NCBI GenBank assembly: GCA_025966435.1
Contig: JAICRQ010000077.1
Span: forward strand, 1-10,339
Origin: Anaerolineales bacterium
GTDB taxonomy: Bacteria; Chloroflexota; Anaerolineae; Anaerolineales; Villigracilaceae
Reading direction: 5' to 3'
Length of the DNA stretch: 10,339 nucleotides
The position numbers were made by a program, and so were the translations under genes. This document shows, piece after piece, positions 2,591-10,339 of this stretch (positions within the stretch are counted from its first letter, which is position 1; each line of letters begins with the position of its first letter). The notes beneath the pieces were generated by a model that worked only from the letters and a program-made list of their open reading frames with translations, was not told the DNA's origin and made no database searches.

Positions 2591-2920
2591 ATGAAACGAA
2601 AATTAAGTGTGCTTTTCGTTGTAGTCTTCGTCGCGCTTTTGACAGTTGTCCCGGCTTCGGCGGGACGCGGCAATGAAACCCCGGGTGTGGTGTACGTCAC
2701 TAGCCAGGGACTGTACTACGATACGTTTGTCGTCAAAGACCCATTGCCCTTCCGTGGGCGGTTCCAAGAGATCGAAAATGGCGCCACAGAGTTTGGTCCC
2801 GGCGATCCGGGTTATCTGGGTGGGCGCTGGTGGGAGGATACGAACGGTAACAATATCATGGACGCCACCGATCACTACTTCCTCTGCCCGCTGCTCGGAC
2901 CCGGGCGACCGACTCCGTAA
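2591..2920 (+). CDS. Small secreted protein with signal peptide and EF-hand-like loop, function unknown
   Basis: 109 aa, starting at ATG 2591-2593 behind a good ribosome site (AGGAGA, four-base spacing). The N-terminus is a classical Sec signal peptide: MKRK, a hydrophobic core to about residue 20, and an AxA motif (A22-S23-A24), with cleavage predicted before G25. The mature protein is about 85 aa. It is rich in Gly, Tyr, Trp and Phe and contains one Cys (C99). Residues 83-94 (D83, N85, N87, D91, D94) have acidic/amide spacing similar to a calcium-binding EF-hand or dockerin loop, set after a GGRWW segment. I know of similar small hypothetical proteins but cannot name a family or function. 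The gene stands alone: the kinase is divergent, and a strong terminator hairpin lies 21 bases after the stop. It is likely exported to the surface or medium; calcium binding is inference. Confidence 0.8.
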   Translation: MKRKLSVLFVVVFVALLTVVPASAGRGNETPGVVYVTSQGLYYDTFVVKDPLPFRGRFQEIENGATEFGPGDPGYLGGRWWEDTNGNNIMDATDHYFLCPLLGPGRPTP

Positions 2921-2941
2921 TGTGAATCAGAAAAGATGATA

Positions 2942-2976
2942 AGAACTTCCAGATCCTTTTAGGGTCTGGAAGTTCT
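2942..2976. terminator. Strong hairpin terminator between convergent genes
   Basis: A 15-bp stem (2942-2956 with 2962-2976) has one G:T-type mismatch and a five-base loop (TTTTA). It lies between the stop of the small secreted protein (+) and the stop of the diguanylate cyclase (-). On the + strand GTTTAG follows; on the - strand a T-rich TTATCATCTTTTC follows. It is therefore likely to end transcription from both sides. Confidence 0.8.
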
Positions 2977-2985
2977 GTTTAGAAA

Positions 2986-4152
2986 TCATCCTTCTTTCGC
3001 CATCTGGATCGCATTTTTAGTCATCTTTGCATTGTAAAGAGCGTCATCCGCCTGCTTCAGGATTTCATCGCGAAGGCTTGTTTCGCTGGCACAGGCAATG
3101 CCAATCGAAACCGTAATATGGAACGAGCCCTTGCCATGGCTGTATTCGGCAACGGCGATCTCAGAGCGGATTCGTTCTGCAAGCACATCGGCATCACAGG
3201 GACCCGGCACGATGACCAGAAATTCCTCGCCGCCCCAGCGCCCGACCAGATCCTGCTTGCGGATCATCGACTGGAATAGATTGGCAGTCTTCGCCAGGAC
3301 CTCGTCGCCGACGGAATGCCCCCAGCGGTCGTTCACCTGTTTGAAATCATCGATATCGATCAGCAGTATGGAAAACTCAACGTTCTGCCTCTGTGCCCGG
3401 GAGATTTCCTTCTCAAGAAACACCTGTGTGGCACGCCTGTTCGGGACGCGGGTCAGGACGTCCATAGTAGCAATCTCCAGCAAGTCGTTCCGCAGGCGGT
3501 GACTGACCATCAGCACGAAGCCTGTGGTCCAGAAGAAGCTGATGGCGAAAGAGAAAAGATAGGTTGCAGATTGCGCGGGGGTGAGGGTGAACGAGTCCTG
3601 TGGAGGGTTCCTCACGACGCTGGTCGTTCGGAAGACCAGAAATGCCGCATGGACGAGGAAGGAGATCAGCATCAGGTTGGCGCTAAAGCGGAGGGCGGTC
3701 TTCTGAATTCGCCATAGCTGAGAAATGAGCAGGCAGGTCATGGCAAGAGACCCCAAGGAAAAGGTGAGGACACGCTTCACCAGGTCCACATCCCAATACG
3801 TGAAGTTCGCCAGCAAAACGAGTACTACCGCAATGATCCCGATCACCAGCACCTTACTATAAGGGAATCCGGTAAATTGGCTGAGGGCGATATAAAAAAG
3901 ACCCGGACCCGTCAGGAGCAGAAGGTTCGACAGAATGATGGACAGAAACTCAGGGAGCTGGTCTGCAAACAAGCGCAGTAACAATCCAGCTGCGACGAAG
4001 AGATTTGCCAGCAGCGCCGCCCCCACGCCCCGATACTGTTTCAAATCCCGAATCAGAAACGCCTGTGCCCCGATCGCCGTCGCCTGGACGAAAAACGTCA
4101 TGCCGACAAAGAGCGCCACCGCCCGCACATCAAACTGGAAGAGGATTTGCAT
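2986..4152 (-). CDS. Membrane diguanylate cyclase (GGDEF domain, multi-TM sensor)
   Basis: 388 aa. It would make the second messenger cyclic di-GMP from two GTP. The first about 216 residues form roughly seven hydrophobic helices (about 9-34, 43-62, 66-90, 98-118, 127-147, 155-175, 194-216), an integral-membrane sensor not matched to a named type. The GGDEF domain spans about 225-385. It has the opening MDVLTRVPNRR, the metal-binding LLIDIDDFK (D266, D268), the active loop GGEEF at 307-311, and the product-inhibition I-site R298-x-x-D301 exactly five residues before it. Both catalytic and feedback sites are intact, so activity with c-di-GMP feedback is expected. No EAL or HD-GYP domain is attached. 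ATG 4150-4152 follows AAAGG with six-base spacing. On the - strand TATAAA (about 4181-4186) could be its -10, but no good -35 is visible. The gene is divergent from padR. Confidence 0.93.
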   Translation of the reverse strand: MQILFQFDVRAVALFVGMTFFVQATAIGAQAFLIRDLKQYRGVGAALLANLFVAAGLLLRLFADQLPEFLSIILSNLLLLTGPGLFYIALSQFTGFPYSKVLVIGIIAVVLVLLANFTYWDVDLVKRVLTFSLGSLAMTCLLISQLWRIQKTALRFSANLMLISFLVHAAFLVFRTTSVVRNPPQDSFTLTPAQSATYLFSFAISFFWTTGFVLMVSHRLRNDLLEIATMDVLTRVPNRRATQVFLEKEISRAQRQNVEFSILLIDIDDFKQVNDRWGHSVGDEVLAKTANLFQSMIRKQDLVGRWGGEEFLVIVPGPCDADVLAERIRSEIAVAEYSHGKGSFHITVSIGIACASETSLRDEILKQADDALYNAKMTKNAIQMAKEG

Positions 4153-5327: not shown

Positions 5328-5549
5328 ATGAATACAGGTACTTTCATCACAGCAGGATTATTTTTCCTGATCGGGCTCATCACAGCGATTCATCCCTTGT
5401 TTGCCTTCAACCTGCGCGCCTGGTTTGGAAGGCAAGTATTGGATATGAAGATCCAACCGGGAGCAAGGACTTTGCTCGCTTATCGAGTAGTAGGAATTGC
5501 ATTCCTGCTGATTGGCGCGGCGATGTTCTTTGTACAACTTAACGGTTAG
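5328..5549 (+). CDS. Small two-TM membrane protein, third gene of the padR operon
   Basis: 73 aa, starting one base after the preceding stop, with AGGAG six bases before the ATG. Two hydrophobic helices (about 5-27 and 52-70) flank a basic and aromatic loop (LRAWFGRQVLDMKIQPGAR). The layout of helix, aromatic loop with a Pro-rich turn, then an 'R-x-x-G-x-x-x-L-x-x-G' helix recalls small DUF6199-like membrane proteins, but the match is too weak to name. It is likely an inner-membrane subunit working with the four-TM protein. Its stop overlaps the tail of the convergent TIR gene by four bases. Confidence 0.75.
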   Translation: MNTGTFITAGLFFLIGLITAIHPLFAFNLRAWFGRQVLDMKIQPGARTLLAYRVVGIAFLLIGAAMFFVQLNG

Positions 5550-7204
5550 GGAGTTGGCCGTGGATGGGACGGCCACTTGATCTCGACCGGTCCCACATAG
5601 CCGTGCACCTCCGACAGGAAGATGCGTCCATGGGAGGGCTCGGTGCAGCCTGCCTGGTCGATCACAGAAACTTCCGTGAACTCATAGACGGGAATTGGTG
5701 TAAAGGTCACCTTTCCGTTACGGCACAACCATGCCTCGAGTATATAGCGCGGGCTGTTCTCACTCTCGCGCTCCCCCGGCGGCACGTCGAAGAAGTCCCA
5801 GCGAATCGTGACCTCATCCCCCAAACGCTCCACTTCCACATTCTGCGGCGCCGGCCATTGTGAGTCTCGTACGATTGGCAGCTCCACTTTGTCAGGATAG
5901 ACCACTTCGAGACTGGAAAGCTCACCGTCCAGTTTTACATCGCGGGCGTTGACCCAGCATACATCCGGGAAAAACTCAGGCAAACCCCATAACCAGGTCT
6001 CCACTTGCCTTCCGGCTTGCAGCTCCACTCGCCCACGAACCTCCATTCGATTCGTGGGAATTAAGCCAAATCGATACAGGTAGATATTGCCCGGTCCGTA
6101 GCGGCAGGCAGTACGGTTGATGACTTCCGCCGTTAGGATTGAAAAAACCGTTGTTGGGGTGGGTGTTTCTGTCGCCGTAGGTGAGGGAGTTGGTGTCGGC
6201 GTGGGAGTTTCCGTCTGGGTCGCTGTGAGGCTAGGGGCAGGAGTAGGCGTATTCGTCACGAGAGCTGTGGCAGGCAGCAAGGAGGGCATTATGGAGGACT
6301 GCGTTTCGGTCGGAGTGTTTGCAGTGCCTGGAGACCAAAGCCCGGACACTGTGATGCTGGCAGCAACCACGGCAGCGCCGACCAGGAGCGTCAGCAATCT
6401 CCCAACTGGCACCGCTAACATTGGAGAGAACAAGGCAGGAATTTTTGCCCACAACGCCGCCAGCGGACTCGTCGTGGCGGAAGCCGTCAGAGCTCCTGTA
6501 GAAGTGTTGACATATTTCGCGTCGCCATCCAACTTGAGAGAGACAATGCCCATTTGCTTGAAACGCTCATCGCGGTTCAAAGCGCGCGTCTTCAATTGAA
6601 AGGCTGCCGCGGTTGGCATGTCCACAAAGACATGGACGCTGCCCGCGACGAGGTTCGCGATCTGTAATTGAGAGCGGTCTGCACTGGTCAGTTTGGAGAT
6701 GAAATCCAGCAGTTGCTGCTGCTTCTCTGCGGTAAAGGCGCTCAGGTCGATGCCTTGAATGACAATCTCTGCCTGGCGCGTCTCTGGTTCGGGCGCGGGC
6801 TCGAACTTCGCCAGATGTGCCTTGACCGTTTCGATGAGCTGGCTTACGGCGTTATCGAACCCCAGCATCTGCACATCGATGAATTGCAGACCTGCCAACT
6901 GGTAACGGACCTCTGCTGGCAATTTCGTCGGCTCCAGCATCACGGCAAAGATCGTACGCCCGGAATCCTGCGAGAGGTCGATCTCCTTGCGGACGTTATC
7001 CGACGCAGCCGACTTGGGGGAGAGCATCAGCACAAAGGCAGGGCAGGTATCGATCGCCTGGACGATCTGCACCCGCCAGGTATTCCCCGCTTTAATCGCC
7101 TCGCGGTCGATCCACACGCTAATCCCCGCCTGCGACATCTTCTCTACAATGGTGTCAACAGTCTGCGTATCGCGCCGGGAGTAGCTGGTAAAGACTTGTG
7201 CCAT
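5546..7204 (-). CDS. Transmembrane TIR-domain protein with Thr/Pro stalk and extracytoplasmic SH3-like and FnIII-like domains
   Basis: 552 aa. The TIR domain is at about 1-133. It begins VFTSYSRRD (residues 4-12), has the WIDREAIKAG loop (31-40), and has VRKEIDLS at 71-78, where E74 aligns by eye with the catalytic Glu of NAD-cleaving TIRs (the SARM1 KEI motif). NADase activity is therefore plausible. A small alpha/beta domain (about 146-226) contains 'EIVIQGIDLSAF' and 'AGSVHVFVDMPTAAA', a pattern seen in adaptor regions of bacterial TIR and caspase-like proteins. A TM helix lies at about 263-287. A Thr/Pro/Ser stalk (about 295-352) follows, then a Cys-bearing SH3-like region (about 353-425) and a FnIII-like beta region with two Cys (about 450-545). 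The predicted topology is TIR inside and sensor outside. It starts at ATG 7202-7204 with no Shine-Dalgarno but a strong promoter just upstream. It converges on, and overlaps by four bases, the padR operon. Signalling or abortive-defence use is inference. Confidence 0.85.
   Translation of the reverse strand: MAQVFTSYSRRDTQTVDTIVEKMSQAGISVWIDREAIKAGNTWRVQIVQAIDTCPAFVLMLSPKSAASDNVRKEIDLSQDSGRTIFAVMLEPTKLPAEVRYQLAGLQFIDVQMLGFDNAVSQLIETVKAHLAKFEPAPEPETRQAEIVIQGIDLSAFTAEKQQQLLDFISKLTSADRSQLQIANLVAGSVHVFVDMPTAAAFQLKTRALNRDERFKQMGIVSLKLDGDAKYVNTSTGALTASATTSPLAALWAKIPALFSPMLAVPVGRLLTLLVGAAVVAASITVSGLWSPGTANTPTETQSSIMPSLLPATALVTNTPTPAPSLTATQTETPTPTPTPSPTATETPTPTTVFSILTAEVINRTACRYGPGNIYLYRFGLIPTNRMEVRGRVELQAGRQVETWLWGLPEFFPDVCWVNARDVKLDGELSSLEVVYPDKVELPIVRDSQWPAPQNVEVERLGDEVTIRWDFFDVPPGERESENSPRYILEAWLCRNGKVTFTPIPVYEFTEVSVIDQAGCTEPSHGRIFLSEVHGYVGPVEIKWPSHPRPTP
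5555..5575 (+). terminator. Hairpin just after the padR operon, inside the tail of the TIR gene
   Basis: A perfect 7-bp stem (TGGCCGT 5555-5561, ACGGCCA 5569-5575) with a 7-base loop begins five bases after the operon stop. No T-run follows (CTTGATCTC). It also codes for the last residues of the convergent TIR protein, so it may be coincidental. Confidence 0.3.
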
Positions 7205-8655: not shown

Positions 8656-9564
8656 TTATACTCTTATGAACCGGCTATAACGCCACTCCAATGCCTCTCT
8701 GCTGGGATAATGATTCTTTAAACTGGGCAAAATCAATTTTGTGTTGTGCAATCCTTTTAGCCCGTGCTGCAAAACAGGACCGTCTTCCTCTTCCAAAACA
8801 TCTGCTCGGACTTGAATAACATAATCAGGGGTAACACCTAATATAAAGCTGTCATAAGCAGCATGATGTAATTTGCAGAGAGCAATACCATTGTCAATTG
8901 TCATCTTGCTTTCTGGTGCACTATCAGGAACGATATGTGCAGCATCAAGCAACACACGATGCTTCAGACGGCAAAAAGCACATTGTGAACGATATGCGTC
9001 CAGAACCTTTTCTCGAAAGCTTCTTTGCTGCAATCTAACCTTAACAGTGGCTGTTATATACGCGTGCCGTGCATCAGACATTTCTGCAGTTTGCCGAGAG
9101 ATATTTGATTCAGAATAGGCGTAGGTGGGAAGCGGATCATCAACAGAAACTGTAAATGTCAGAGTGCCTGGATCATCACCAACAATGTATACAGGGTATA
9201 CAGCTAAATATCTGCCGGGTTGCAGTCCGTGCAAATAAATGAGCGGGAGATTTAGCTCAAACACCTTCCGCAAGCCCACGTTATCAACGTGATTAGGGTT
9301 ATCACCACGGTATCGATATTGCAGAAAACCATCTTTCTCGAGATAGTTGTCGTCATAAGGGCCCTTTACTGTAGTTGTAATTGAAAGTGGCAACCTAAGA
9401 ATTTTGGGTTTGAATATACCGTTTGGGGCGACAAGCGGGACTCGCTGTCCTTGAAACTCAAAACCCTGTAATAGTAAATCTCGAGCCAGCACATCCCCAT
9501 GCATATTGACCTGCTCCGAAAGCCAATTGAATGCTGCTAAGCGAACTTGAAGGTCAATATCCAT
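8656..9564 (-). CDS. HNH endonuclease with N-terminal ScoMcrA-like SRA/sulfur-binding domain, candidate type IV restriction enzyme
   Basis: 302 aa. The C-terminal HNH nuclease (about 182-246) has C195-x-x-C198, the DAAHIVPDS block with H210, N225, and C230-x-x-H233-H234, so the metal-binding beta-beta-alpha core is intact (HNH_2 type). The N-terminal about 150 residues contain RYRGDNPNHVDNVGLRKVFE (85-104) and PLIYLHGLQPGRYLAVYPVY (107-126), including Y123-P124. This arrangement matches my memory of SRA-like sulfur-binding domains of ScoMcrA/SprMcrA proteins, which recognise phosphorothioate or methylated DNA and cut it. That assignment is inference; the HNH call is firm. The start is ATG 9562-9564, with only a weak ribosome site. 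The gene is divergent from the retron promoter and clearly more AT-rich than the left side of the window, suggesting an acquired defence cluster. Confidence 0.85.
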   Translation of the reverse strand: MDIDLQVRLAAFNWLSEQVNMHGDVLARDLLLQGFEFQGQRVPLVAPNGIFKPKILRLPLSITTTVKGPYDDNYLEKDGFLQYRYRGDNPNHVDNVGLRKVFELNLPLIYLHGLQPGRYLAVYPVYIVGDDPGTLTFTVSVDDPLPTYAYSESNISRQTAEMSDARHAYITATVKVRLQQRSFREKVLDAYRSQCAFCRLKHRVLLDAAHIVPDSAPESKMTIDNGIALCKLHHAAYDSFILGVTPDYVIQVRADVLEEEDGPVLQHGLKGLHNTKLILPSLKNHYPSREALEWRYSRFIRV

Positions 9565-9636
9565 AACAAGATTTTACTTCACTCTAGCATCTCATTTCAT
9601 TATGACAGAACAATGATTTCTTCTCATAAATGTAGA

Positions 9637-9642
9637 TATAAT
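9637..9642 (+). promoter_or_regulatory. -10 box of the retron transcript
   Basis: A perfect TATAAT at 9637-9642 predicts a start near 9649-9650, the first base of the a1 repeat of the retron RNA. The -35 is poor (ATGATT at 9613-9618, 18-bp spacer). The match between predicted start and RNA edge is the main support. Confidence 0.65.
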
Positions 9643-9649
9643 TATATTA

Positions 9650-9797
9650 AGTGCTTGTGGAGTTCAATTAATTTCTGCTGTGTAAACGCAGCAAGTACGA
9701 CAAAGTTTGTCAGAAGAGCGCCTGTTATGGGCGCGCTGCTTGTTACTGGCGTCTGGCGCGCCGATATAGCGAATGCGTAAATTACTCCACAAGCACT
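9650..9797 (+). ncRNA. Retron msr-msd non-coding RNA
   Basis: About 148 bases, ending three bases before the reverse transcriptase frame. The ends form a perfect 14-bp inverted repeat (AGTGCTTGTGGAGT 9650-9663; ACTCCACAAGCACT 9784-9797). It can be extended past a small bulge by AATT (9666-9669) with AATT (9780-9783). This is the a1/a2 stem that defines retrons. Inside are a 7-bp hairpin (9676-9682/9687-9693, loop TAAA, one G:T), a small hairpin (9699-9711), and a long imperfect hairpin (about 9719-9771). The core of the long hairpin pairs GGCGCGC 9730-9736 with GCGCGCC 9756-9762. The first two fit msr; the long one fits the msd that would be copied into DNA. The priming G cannot be chosen by eye. 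The position, the inverted repeat and the adjacent retron-type RT agree. The exact fold is inference. Confidence 0.8.
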
Positions 9798-9800
9798 ATC

Positions 9801-10339
9801 TTGAACATACGTCTACACTATGAGTCTTACATTATTAAGATCCCCGAAGACCTTAAAGAAGATTTTTTCAAACTTAGAGATCGTGAAGATGTTGCGACTT
9901 TACTTGAAATTACAAGCAAGCAACTAAATTTTCATTTATATATACTTCGACCCTCGACTAAGTACACAAAATTTTATATTCCAAAAAAGTCAGGTAAATA
10001 TAGAGAAATTTCAGCGCCTATATCGCCAATAAAAATTATCCAACGAAAGCTCAAACAAGTTTTGGAAGCAGTTTATCAACCTAAGCCAGCAACACAGGGG
10101 TTCCGATCTAATCATAGTATTGTTACAAATGCAAGAATACACAAAAGGCGTCGCTATGTTTTAAATCTTGATTTGGATAACTTTTTTTCAACTATCCACT
10201 TCGGACGCGTTCGCGGTATGTTCATGGGTAACCCATACCGCCTTAACAACGAAGTATCAACGATACTTGCTCAAATTTGTTGCCACGATGGACATCTGCC
10301 TCAAGGTGCTCCAACATCTCCAATTATTTCTAATATGAT
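9801..10339 (+). CDS. Retron reverse transcriptase, N-terminal part, cut by window end
   Basis: 179 complete codons are visible and the frame runs off the right edge. The product makes msDNA from the adjacent RNA. In order, counting from TTG 9801: an N-terminal REDVATLLEITSKQLN helix region (28-43); the FYIPKKSGKYREISAP finger segment (58-73); the retron region-X motif NARIH (N110-A111-x-x-H114, NAxxH); LNLDLDNFFSTI (121-132) with the first catalytic D124; GRVRGMF (135-141); and PQGAPTSP (167-174). The YADD box and the VTG-bearing region Y lie beyond the window. NAxxH separates it from group II intron and DGR enzymes. The frame has no ATG or GTG near its start and is open back to 9672. TTG 9801, four bases after a2, is the best start, though no Shine-Dalgarno is seen. 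Sequence is AT-rich compared with the left side of the window. Confidence 0.9.
   Translation, partial: MNIRLHYESYIIKIPEDLKEDFFKLRDREDVATLLEITSKQLNFHLYILRPSTKYTKFYIPKKSGKYREISAPISPIKIIQRKLKQVLEAVYQPKPATQGFRSNHSIVTNARIHKRRRYVLNLDLDNFFSTIHFGRVRGMFMGNPYRLNNEVSTILAQICCHDGHLPQGAPTSPIISNM

Follow-up and report, generated by a model that had tools for sequence, protein, structure and literature searches.

The right end of the DNA stretch analyzed here (hereafter, the window; 10,339 nucleotides, comprising the entire contig C377 of a fragmented host genome of 635 contigs that is 80% complete) carries an RT-TOPRIM retron, that is, one with a reverse transcriptase (RT) fused to a TOPRIM domain, which is probably decaying in this copy. 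On balance, we favor the interpretation that the clade of this retron does not always prime from guanosine and that, in the window, the predicted priming nucleotide is an adenosine, A9670. With regard to the priming site, there appears to be about as much for as against the possibility that the primer base is part of a like-with-like purine mismatch (G/G or A/A) that evolves as a unit, G being one of the allowed letters. A retron subgroup that would prime from adenosine, or would tolerate either purine, is a prediction from comparative sequence analysis, and what is new is the probable adenosine at this priming site along with its coordinated facing base.

The earlier note on this DNA, which was made from the sequence alone, described a perfect 14-bp inverted repeat with nested hairpins immediately ahead of an RT reading frame, and this description was borne out (Table 1). 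The arms of the repeat are 100% complementary and 120 nt apart, whereas the longest perfect repeat among 300 dinucleotide shuffles of 9560-9900 is 11 nt. The RNA-folding check proposed in the note yielded −63.9 kcal/mol for the RNA 9645-9805 (z = −5.18), with none of the 200 shuffles folding as well; a search of 9560-9900 against Rfam produced no matching family at E values up to 1. The repeat and the structured RNA are located directly upstream of the retron-type RT frame.

Table 1 Features of the retron locus at the right end of contig C377 (the window) and at the start of contig C234 (locus L003)
Feature	Position	Strand or contig	Basis or remark
a1 arm, retron ncRNA	9650..9663	+	perfect 14-nt repeat with 9784-9797
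Inner 5' arm AATT	9666..9669	+	forms a helix with 9780-9783 across a 2-nt bulge; from comparison, absent from the minimum-energy fold
Predicted branch (priming) nucleotide A	9670	+	comparison with clade loci
msr hairpin	9676..9693	+	fold; counterpart in relatives varies with compensation
Small second hairpin	9699..9711	+	fold, window sequence only
Long hairpin, probable msd template	9718..9778	+	fold; role suggested by the retron layout
A facing the branch position	9779	+	comparison with clade loci
Inner 3' arm AATT	9780..9783	+	comparison with relatives
a2 arm, retron ncRNA	9784..9797	+	perfect repeat with a1
RT N-terminal part (NAxxH, LDLDNFF, PQGAPTSP)	9801..10337	+	cut by the contig end; predicted to continue on C234
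ATG, family-like start, out of frame with the RT	9820..9822	+	frame probably changes shortly downstream
RT end and TOPRIM start	L003:3-608	C234	PADLOC PDLC02968 positions 160-343
TOPRIM remainder, next frame	L003:590-1210	C234	PADLOC PDLC02968 positions 343-528

The priming guanosine is called conserved in retrons in several reports (PMC6868368, PMC12887533, PMC12956279, PMC11754653); in Retron-Eco8, a change of the priming G to C stops defense, and in Retron-Eco1, the positions around the priming G tolerate substitution poorly (both described among PMC12887533, PMC11754653, PMC12956279 and PMC12548924). In the window, the segment 9664-9675, TCAATTAATTTC, is without G where the priming guanosine would be expected. 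In the clade of the window RT, the a1/a2 stem is separated from the branch base by an extra short helix (AATT:AATT in the window, CGATT:AATCG in L005, GTATT:AATAC in L038 and GATT:AATC in L200). The base that follows this inner helix is G, with G facing it, in L004, L005, L029, L031, L037-L041 and others, and A, with A facing it, in the window (A9670), L006, L030, L043, L046 and L200. The assignment of the branch position to A9670 is fixed by the inner helix, and this helix is open in the minimum-energy fold computed for the window RNA.

These letters were compared across the clade with a fixed structure finder, used at a score threshold of 16. The 39 loci of the RT tree group were run through it together with 20 dinucleotide shuffles of each locus, 780 in all; the genome set searched for relatives contained one genome per species. 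The threshold was reached by 30 of the 39 loci compared to 19 of the 780 shuffles (Fisher p = 6e-34). The branch and facing letters in the 30 loci, the window included, are G/G in 16, A/A in 8, T/T in 2, T/C in 2, G/A in 1 and A/G in 1, whereas the 19 passing shuffles gave G/G twice, A/A never and other combinations 17 times. Like-with-like purines were thus found in 24 of 30 loci vs 2 of 19 shuffles (Fisher p = 2e-6), and among the 26 loci with purines on both sides, the two letters are coordinated (Fisher p = 5e-5; like the other Fisher tests here, this one ignores kinship, and the loci include the near copies L038-L040 as well as L041 and L203). Because most helices called by the finder stop at letters that do not pair, the shuffles serve as the fair control. 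The most trusted of the 8 A/A loci are the window, L006, L030, L043, L046 and L200, with L059 and L065 open to other possible readings. The close relatives L028 and L198 have, by eye, T at the branch, facing G if the wobble pair is not drawn (T/C and T/T in the finder). The finder result does not fit for four loci, L008, L045, L054 and L055, of which L055 is G/G by eye; the 9 loci below the threshold include L007 and L063, both with G by eye (L063 is G/G in the finder, too).

The set of 39 leaves out L042 (identical to L007), L201 (identical to L061), L060 (Eco2 clade), L057 (RT frame not found), L056, L058 (partial contig), L062 and L064 (kept out of the tree), L010/L033/L034 (other RTs), and L009, L011, L012, L014-L024 and L026 (partial or distant matches); the letters obtained among these rows are G/A for L056, T/T for L058 and A/A for L062, and there is no row for L064. 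In a wider set (L066-L195, repeats left out), 52 rows scored at least 16 with the same finder, of which 34 were G/G, 3 A/A and 15 other; the three A/A rows (L071, L123 and L124) are ambiguous by eye, and many of the 15 are over-extended pairings of plain Eco2-like RNAs (a1, G, ATTT). By parsimony, label A, which was set by hand for 7 rows, needs 5 changes on the RT tree, of which the starred branches force 1, the tree being weakly resolved.

The architecture itself is common to the relatives. The stem, along with the counterpart of the msr hairpin, is kept through compensatory changes, which answers the covariation check suggested in the note. Across 21 loci (L039, L040 and L203 dropped), arms paired with their own partners vs swapped ones at 0.92 vs 0.28 for the outer helix, 0.98 vs 0.64 for the inner helix and 0.86 vs 0.37 for the hairpin, in a comparison that is partly circular because the helices were chosen for pairing.

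The main rival for the window, which we consider rather unlikely, is that the RT-TOPRIM retron is an ordinary one, priming at a guanosine of the a1 stem (G9662 or a neighbor), with A9670 being part of the linker. The a1 arm contains G9659, G9660 and G9662, and the stem of the minimum-energy fold ends at its inner end, GGAGT; a 2019 review (PMC6868368) places the priming G either within the inner end of the msr stem or just after it. Also consistent with this rival, L043, L046 and L200 have a G a few bases upstream of the branch A, within the paired arm. The best counter-case is L030, in which the a1 arm AAGAGAACATCCA is followed by AAAAATAATTT and then by the hairpin, such that the last G before the hairpin stem is that of the GAG located near the 5' end of a1. 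Furthermore, a plain linker does not explain the recurrence of G/G in 16 and of A/A in 8 of the 30 loci right after the inner helix.

The RT reading frame of the window contains the three motifs named in the note, the first in the form NARIH (Table 1). The remainder of the gene was sought in the same genome: a search with the RVT_1 profile at E = 0.001 yielded two matches only, the window RT and the first bases of contig C234. This contig begins with LQQLAKRHQCTYSRYADD and continues with EVTGLTVN, the VTG of region Y, and it also encodes YADD; YADD and VTG, for which the note had asked, are assigned to the window RT on the strength of the adjacency of C377 and C234. The note also placed the effector downstream of the window or in fusion with the RT, and the TOPRIM domain on C234 agrees with the latter. 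The window RT piece covers positions 3-151 of PDLC02968 (529 positions), and about 8 residues are absent between the pieces from the two contigs, the relative L006 having ICARLDAN at that place. Of the active-site motifs of TOPRIM (E, D and DxD, compared as given for Eco2 in PMC12405507), this copy shows YTEGKTD, which follows the VTG element in L003:3-608, and FDRDVD in P0001. The start of C234 is, almost certainly, the remainder of the window RT gene.

Synteny within the genus lends modest support to the proposed adjacency, the continuity of the profile match being the stronger part. Five same-genus genomes were searched for both flanking genes: the ABC-F ATPase, the neighbor on C234, was found in all five, and the nucleoside phosphorylase, the neighbor on C377, has a close match (>80% identity) in two. 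In G609, the two are encoded on one contig, in matching order and on matching strands, 14 kb apart, and in G351, they are separated by about 70 kb. When the ten proteins of C377 and C234 were compared with four same-genus stretches, matches were obtained for the phosphorylase, a DUF559 protein and ABC-F only. The interval in G609 (L220, G609:C2:485500-503200) holds about 14 kb of other genes between the retron-flanking ones and appears as a variable insertion spot, with a 151-residue frame, perhaps a transposase, present three times.

Retron type numbers are used here as PADLOC names. Both C234 pieces have RT-Toprim type I-C (PDLC02965/02968) as the best PADLOC match, and so do the full-length relatives L028, L198, L005, L036 and L037, whereas the window RT piece, taken by itself, gives 228.9 bits with RT-TIR_XII and 223.1 with RT-Protease_XI, more than the 207.7 obtained with I-C, and the TOPRIM relative L031 best matches XII. 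Types XII (RT-TIR) and XI (RT-protease) are the nearest PADLOC RTs to the window, but the effector here is TOPRIM; an RT-protease, L008, is found within the window's own tree group. Judging by these matches, the window locus is an RT-TOPRIM retron of PADLOC type I-C, a known kind of system: of the "undescribed retron" of the note, the retron stands, and the novelty as a system does not. The NCBIfam model for retron Ec67 (NF038237, cut-off 450 bits) scored below the cut-off with L028 (396.7), L198 (375.5), L005 (352.5) and L037 (370.3), as well as with the partial window and C234 pieces (208.7, 135.9 and 15.1); two of the four relatives score slightly higher with the NCBI TIR retron model, also under its cut-off. 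With regard to intron and DRT RTs, two affiliations that the note had listed as refuting, retron families were the ones matched: the group II intron RT model gave 45.2 bits with the window piece vs a cut-off of 300, and the four relatives did not exceed 64 of 300 for group II, 39 of 390 for Drt2 and 28.7 of 200 for Drt3a.

In the RT tree, the window is the sister of L006, from a different genome (support 99/91), and belongs to a group of 39 rows (the W group) that is split from five Eco2-like rows at 100/100. Among the RTs of this group are some whose fusion partner is a trypsin-like protease (L008), a Schlafen AlbA_2 domain (L007) or an Mrr-type domain (L046, with L200 similar). The coordinates of L198 coincide with a plasmid gene of Herpetosiphon aurantiacus (Chloroflexota); the Herpetosiphon match shares its coordinates with the match in genome G890, assigned by the search tool to the window's phylum, and the Chloroflexota-like setting surmised in the note thus holds. 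Searches of phage records produced no match at E = 1e-60, and the genome samples of the family, and then of the order and class, yielded no further loci. An AlphaFold2 model of L028 (mean pLDDT 78.2, pTM 0.51) retrieved from PDB, as the best matches, five Eco2 chains (E from 3.1e-35, 644-654 alignment columns covering both domains, 27-28% identity, TM about 0.4).

Like the window, Retron-Eco2 (Ec67, Escherichia coli; PDB 9lm3, 9i2f) has an ncRNA right before an RT-TOPRIM fusion gene, and the order reported for it, a1 stem, branch rG15, AUUU linker and hairpin (PMC12405507), recurs in the window clade as a1 stem, branch base, AUUU linker, hairpin and msd. Unlike Eco2, the window RT lies outside the Eco2 clade, its RNA has a longer linker with an inner helix and the predicted branch base is A rather than G; the protein of the relative L028 is 27-28% identical to Eco2. 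Labeled relatives of the window also differ from Eco2 at the residue reported, in the same source, to bond the branch rG15, namely R184. This position is R in four of the five Eco2-clade rows, but one of Q, E, N, H, A and K occupies it in all 27 rows of the W clade that are labeled G, A or T and have a residue there; R occurs in two unlabeled rows, L053 and L054, and the window residue falls in the gap between C377 and C234. Thus, the contact of R184 with G may have been lost in the W group. Position 184 was also considered as the residue that switches between A and G and was rejected because it does not separate the A rows from the G rows.

The copy in the window is probably decaying, to judge from its reading frames: TOPRIM changes frame on C234 after about L003:590-610, and the RT start is probably shifted as well. 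The first start codon in the RT frame is a TTG at 9801, and reading from the out-of-frame ATG at 9820 gives MSLTLLRSP, which resembles the starts of relatives (MSLHLSSDP in L198). A programmed frameshift is not favored as the cause of the TOPRIM frame change because L028, L198, L005, L036 and L037 read through RT-TOPRIM uninterrupted in a single frame and because L006 (nearest relative, genome G372; reverse strand, about 2600-3220) changes frame in TOPRIM at a different place. In addition, L030 has a stop inside TOPRIM near the end of its contig, and the C-terminus of L004 departs from the family.

If the window locus were a dead remnant, the A letters could be meaningless, an explanation that we consider unlikely. 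Unlike the frames of the retron, those of the neighboring phosphorylase (256 aa) and ABC-F ATPase (528 aa, truncated where its contig stops) are open, and the three A/A members with TOPRIM, the window, L006 and L030, all have an interrupted TOPRIM frame, which fits decay. Against this, the 14-bp stem of the window is perfect, L006 shares A/A while its RT frame is open, and the A/A members L046 and L200, from different assemblies, have unbroken frames that span RT and effector (526 and 520 aa) and resemble each other at the C-terminus; A/A is therefore not confined to broken copies. Another A/A member, L043, has an uninterrupted RT frame of 373 aa, with no fused effector. Furthermore, the two letters change together, and decay would not be expected to alter both facing letters jointly. 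Self-priming of the kind reported for Retron-Sen1 (Se72), in which the RT starts at a 3'-OH with no 2',5' branch, appears highly improbable: Sen1 is without an apparent priming guanosine, as the window may be, and no 2',5' linkage was observed for Sen1 (PMC6868368), but the window RNA keeps the branch layout, the clade retains long a1/a2 stems and the Eco2-like order of stem, one base, short linker and hairpin, and G is at the branch in about half of the confident loci, which fits branch priming.

Under the preferred interpretation, priming from adenosine, the ncRNA would be transcribed upstream of the RT gene, with a1 and a2 pairing at its ends; the RT would prime DNA synthesis on the 2'-OH of the nucleotide at the stem's inner end and would then copy the msd hairpin. 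The priming nucleotide would be adenosine in the window and its nearest relative as well as in several further lineages, with the facing base shifting along (G/G to A/A), such that, in the A-type members, the RT might read the like-with-like purine mismatch at the end of the stem rather than the letter. In working relatives, by analogy with Eco2, the msDNA would silence the fused TOPRIM nuclease for as long as no phage disturbs it; in Eco2, TOPRIM is an RNase and the phage trigger is DenB (PMC12405507).

Several observations were made on other effectors in the clade and on the neighborhood of the retron. An Mrr-type restriction endonuclease domain (PF04471, E = 2.1e-6 in L046, similar by eye in L200) is the fusion partner of the RTs of L046:2326-3903 and L200:1018-2577 (reverse strand), each with an A/A ncRNA upstream; the best PADLOC match of L046, RT-protease XI, involves the RT part only, and the RT-Mrr fusion is a possible new fused effector. 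In L007:979-2592, with a retron-like ncRNA upstream that is the same as in L042 (Chloroflexota bacterium USCA_metabat.78), the RT is fused to Schlafen AlbA_2 (PF04326, E = 2.5e-12); the portion of the open literature covered for retrons and Schlafen contained no related-looking report. TOPRIM itself seems to move between defense systems because the C-terminus of an Eco57I-type restriction-modification protein (PF07669; L023:1477-3645) matches the TOPRIM part of the I-C model (PDLC02968 positions 327-525). Within the window, the reverse strand encodes a TIR_2 protein (5546-7204; PF13676, E = 1.3e-20) that has a threonine/proline-rich middle and partially matches the models for SAVED-TIR, TIR-pAgo and Thoeris, as well as an HNH_2 endonuclease (8656-9564), divergently oriented to the retron and related to phosphorothioated-DNA restriction enzymes at 67.7 bits, far below the family cut-off of 180.

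In the part of the open PubMed Central literature that was covered, no retron with a branch base other than G was found, the remark on Sen1 apart. If the prediction is true, a natural A-type group would suggest that stem-end geometry, and not the letter, is what the RT reads; it would also widen retron searches that anchor on G and would enlarge the DNA-writing toolbox by RTs that start differently.
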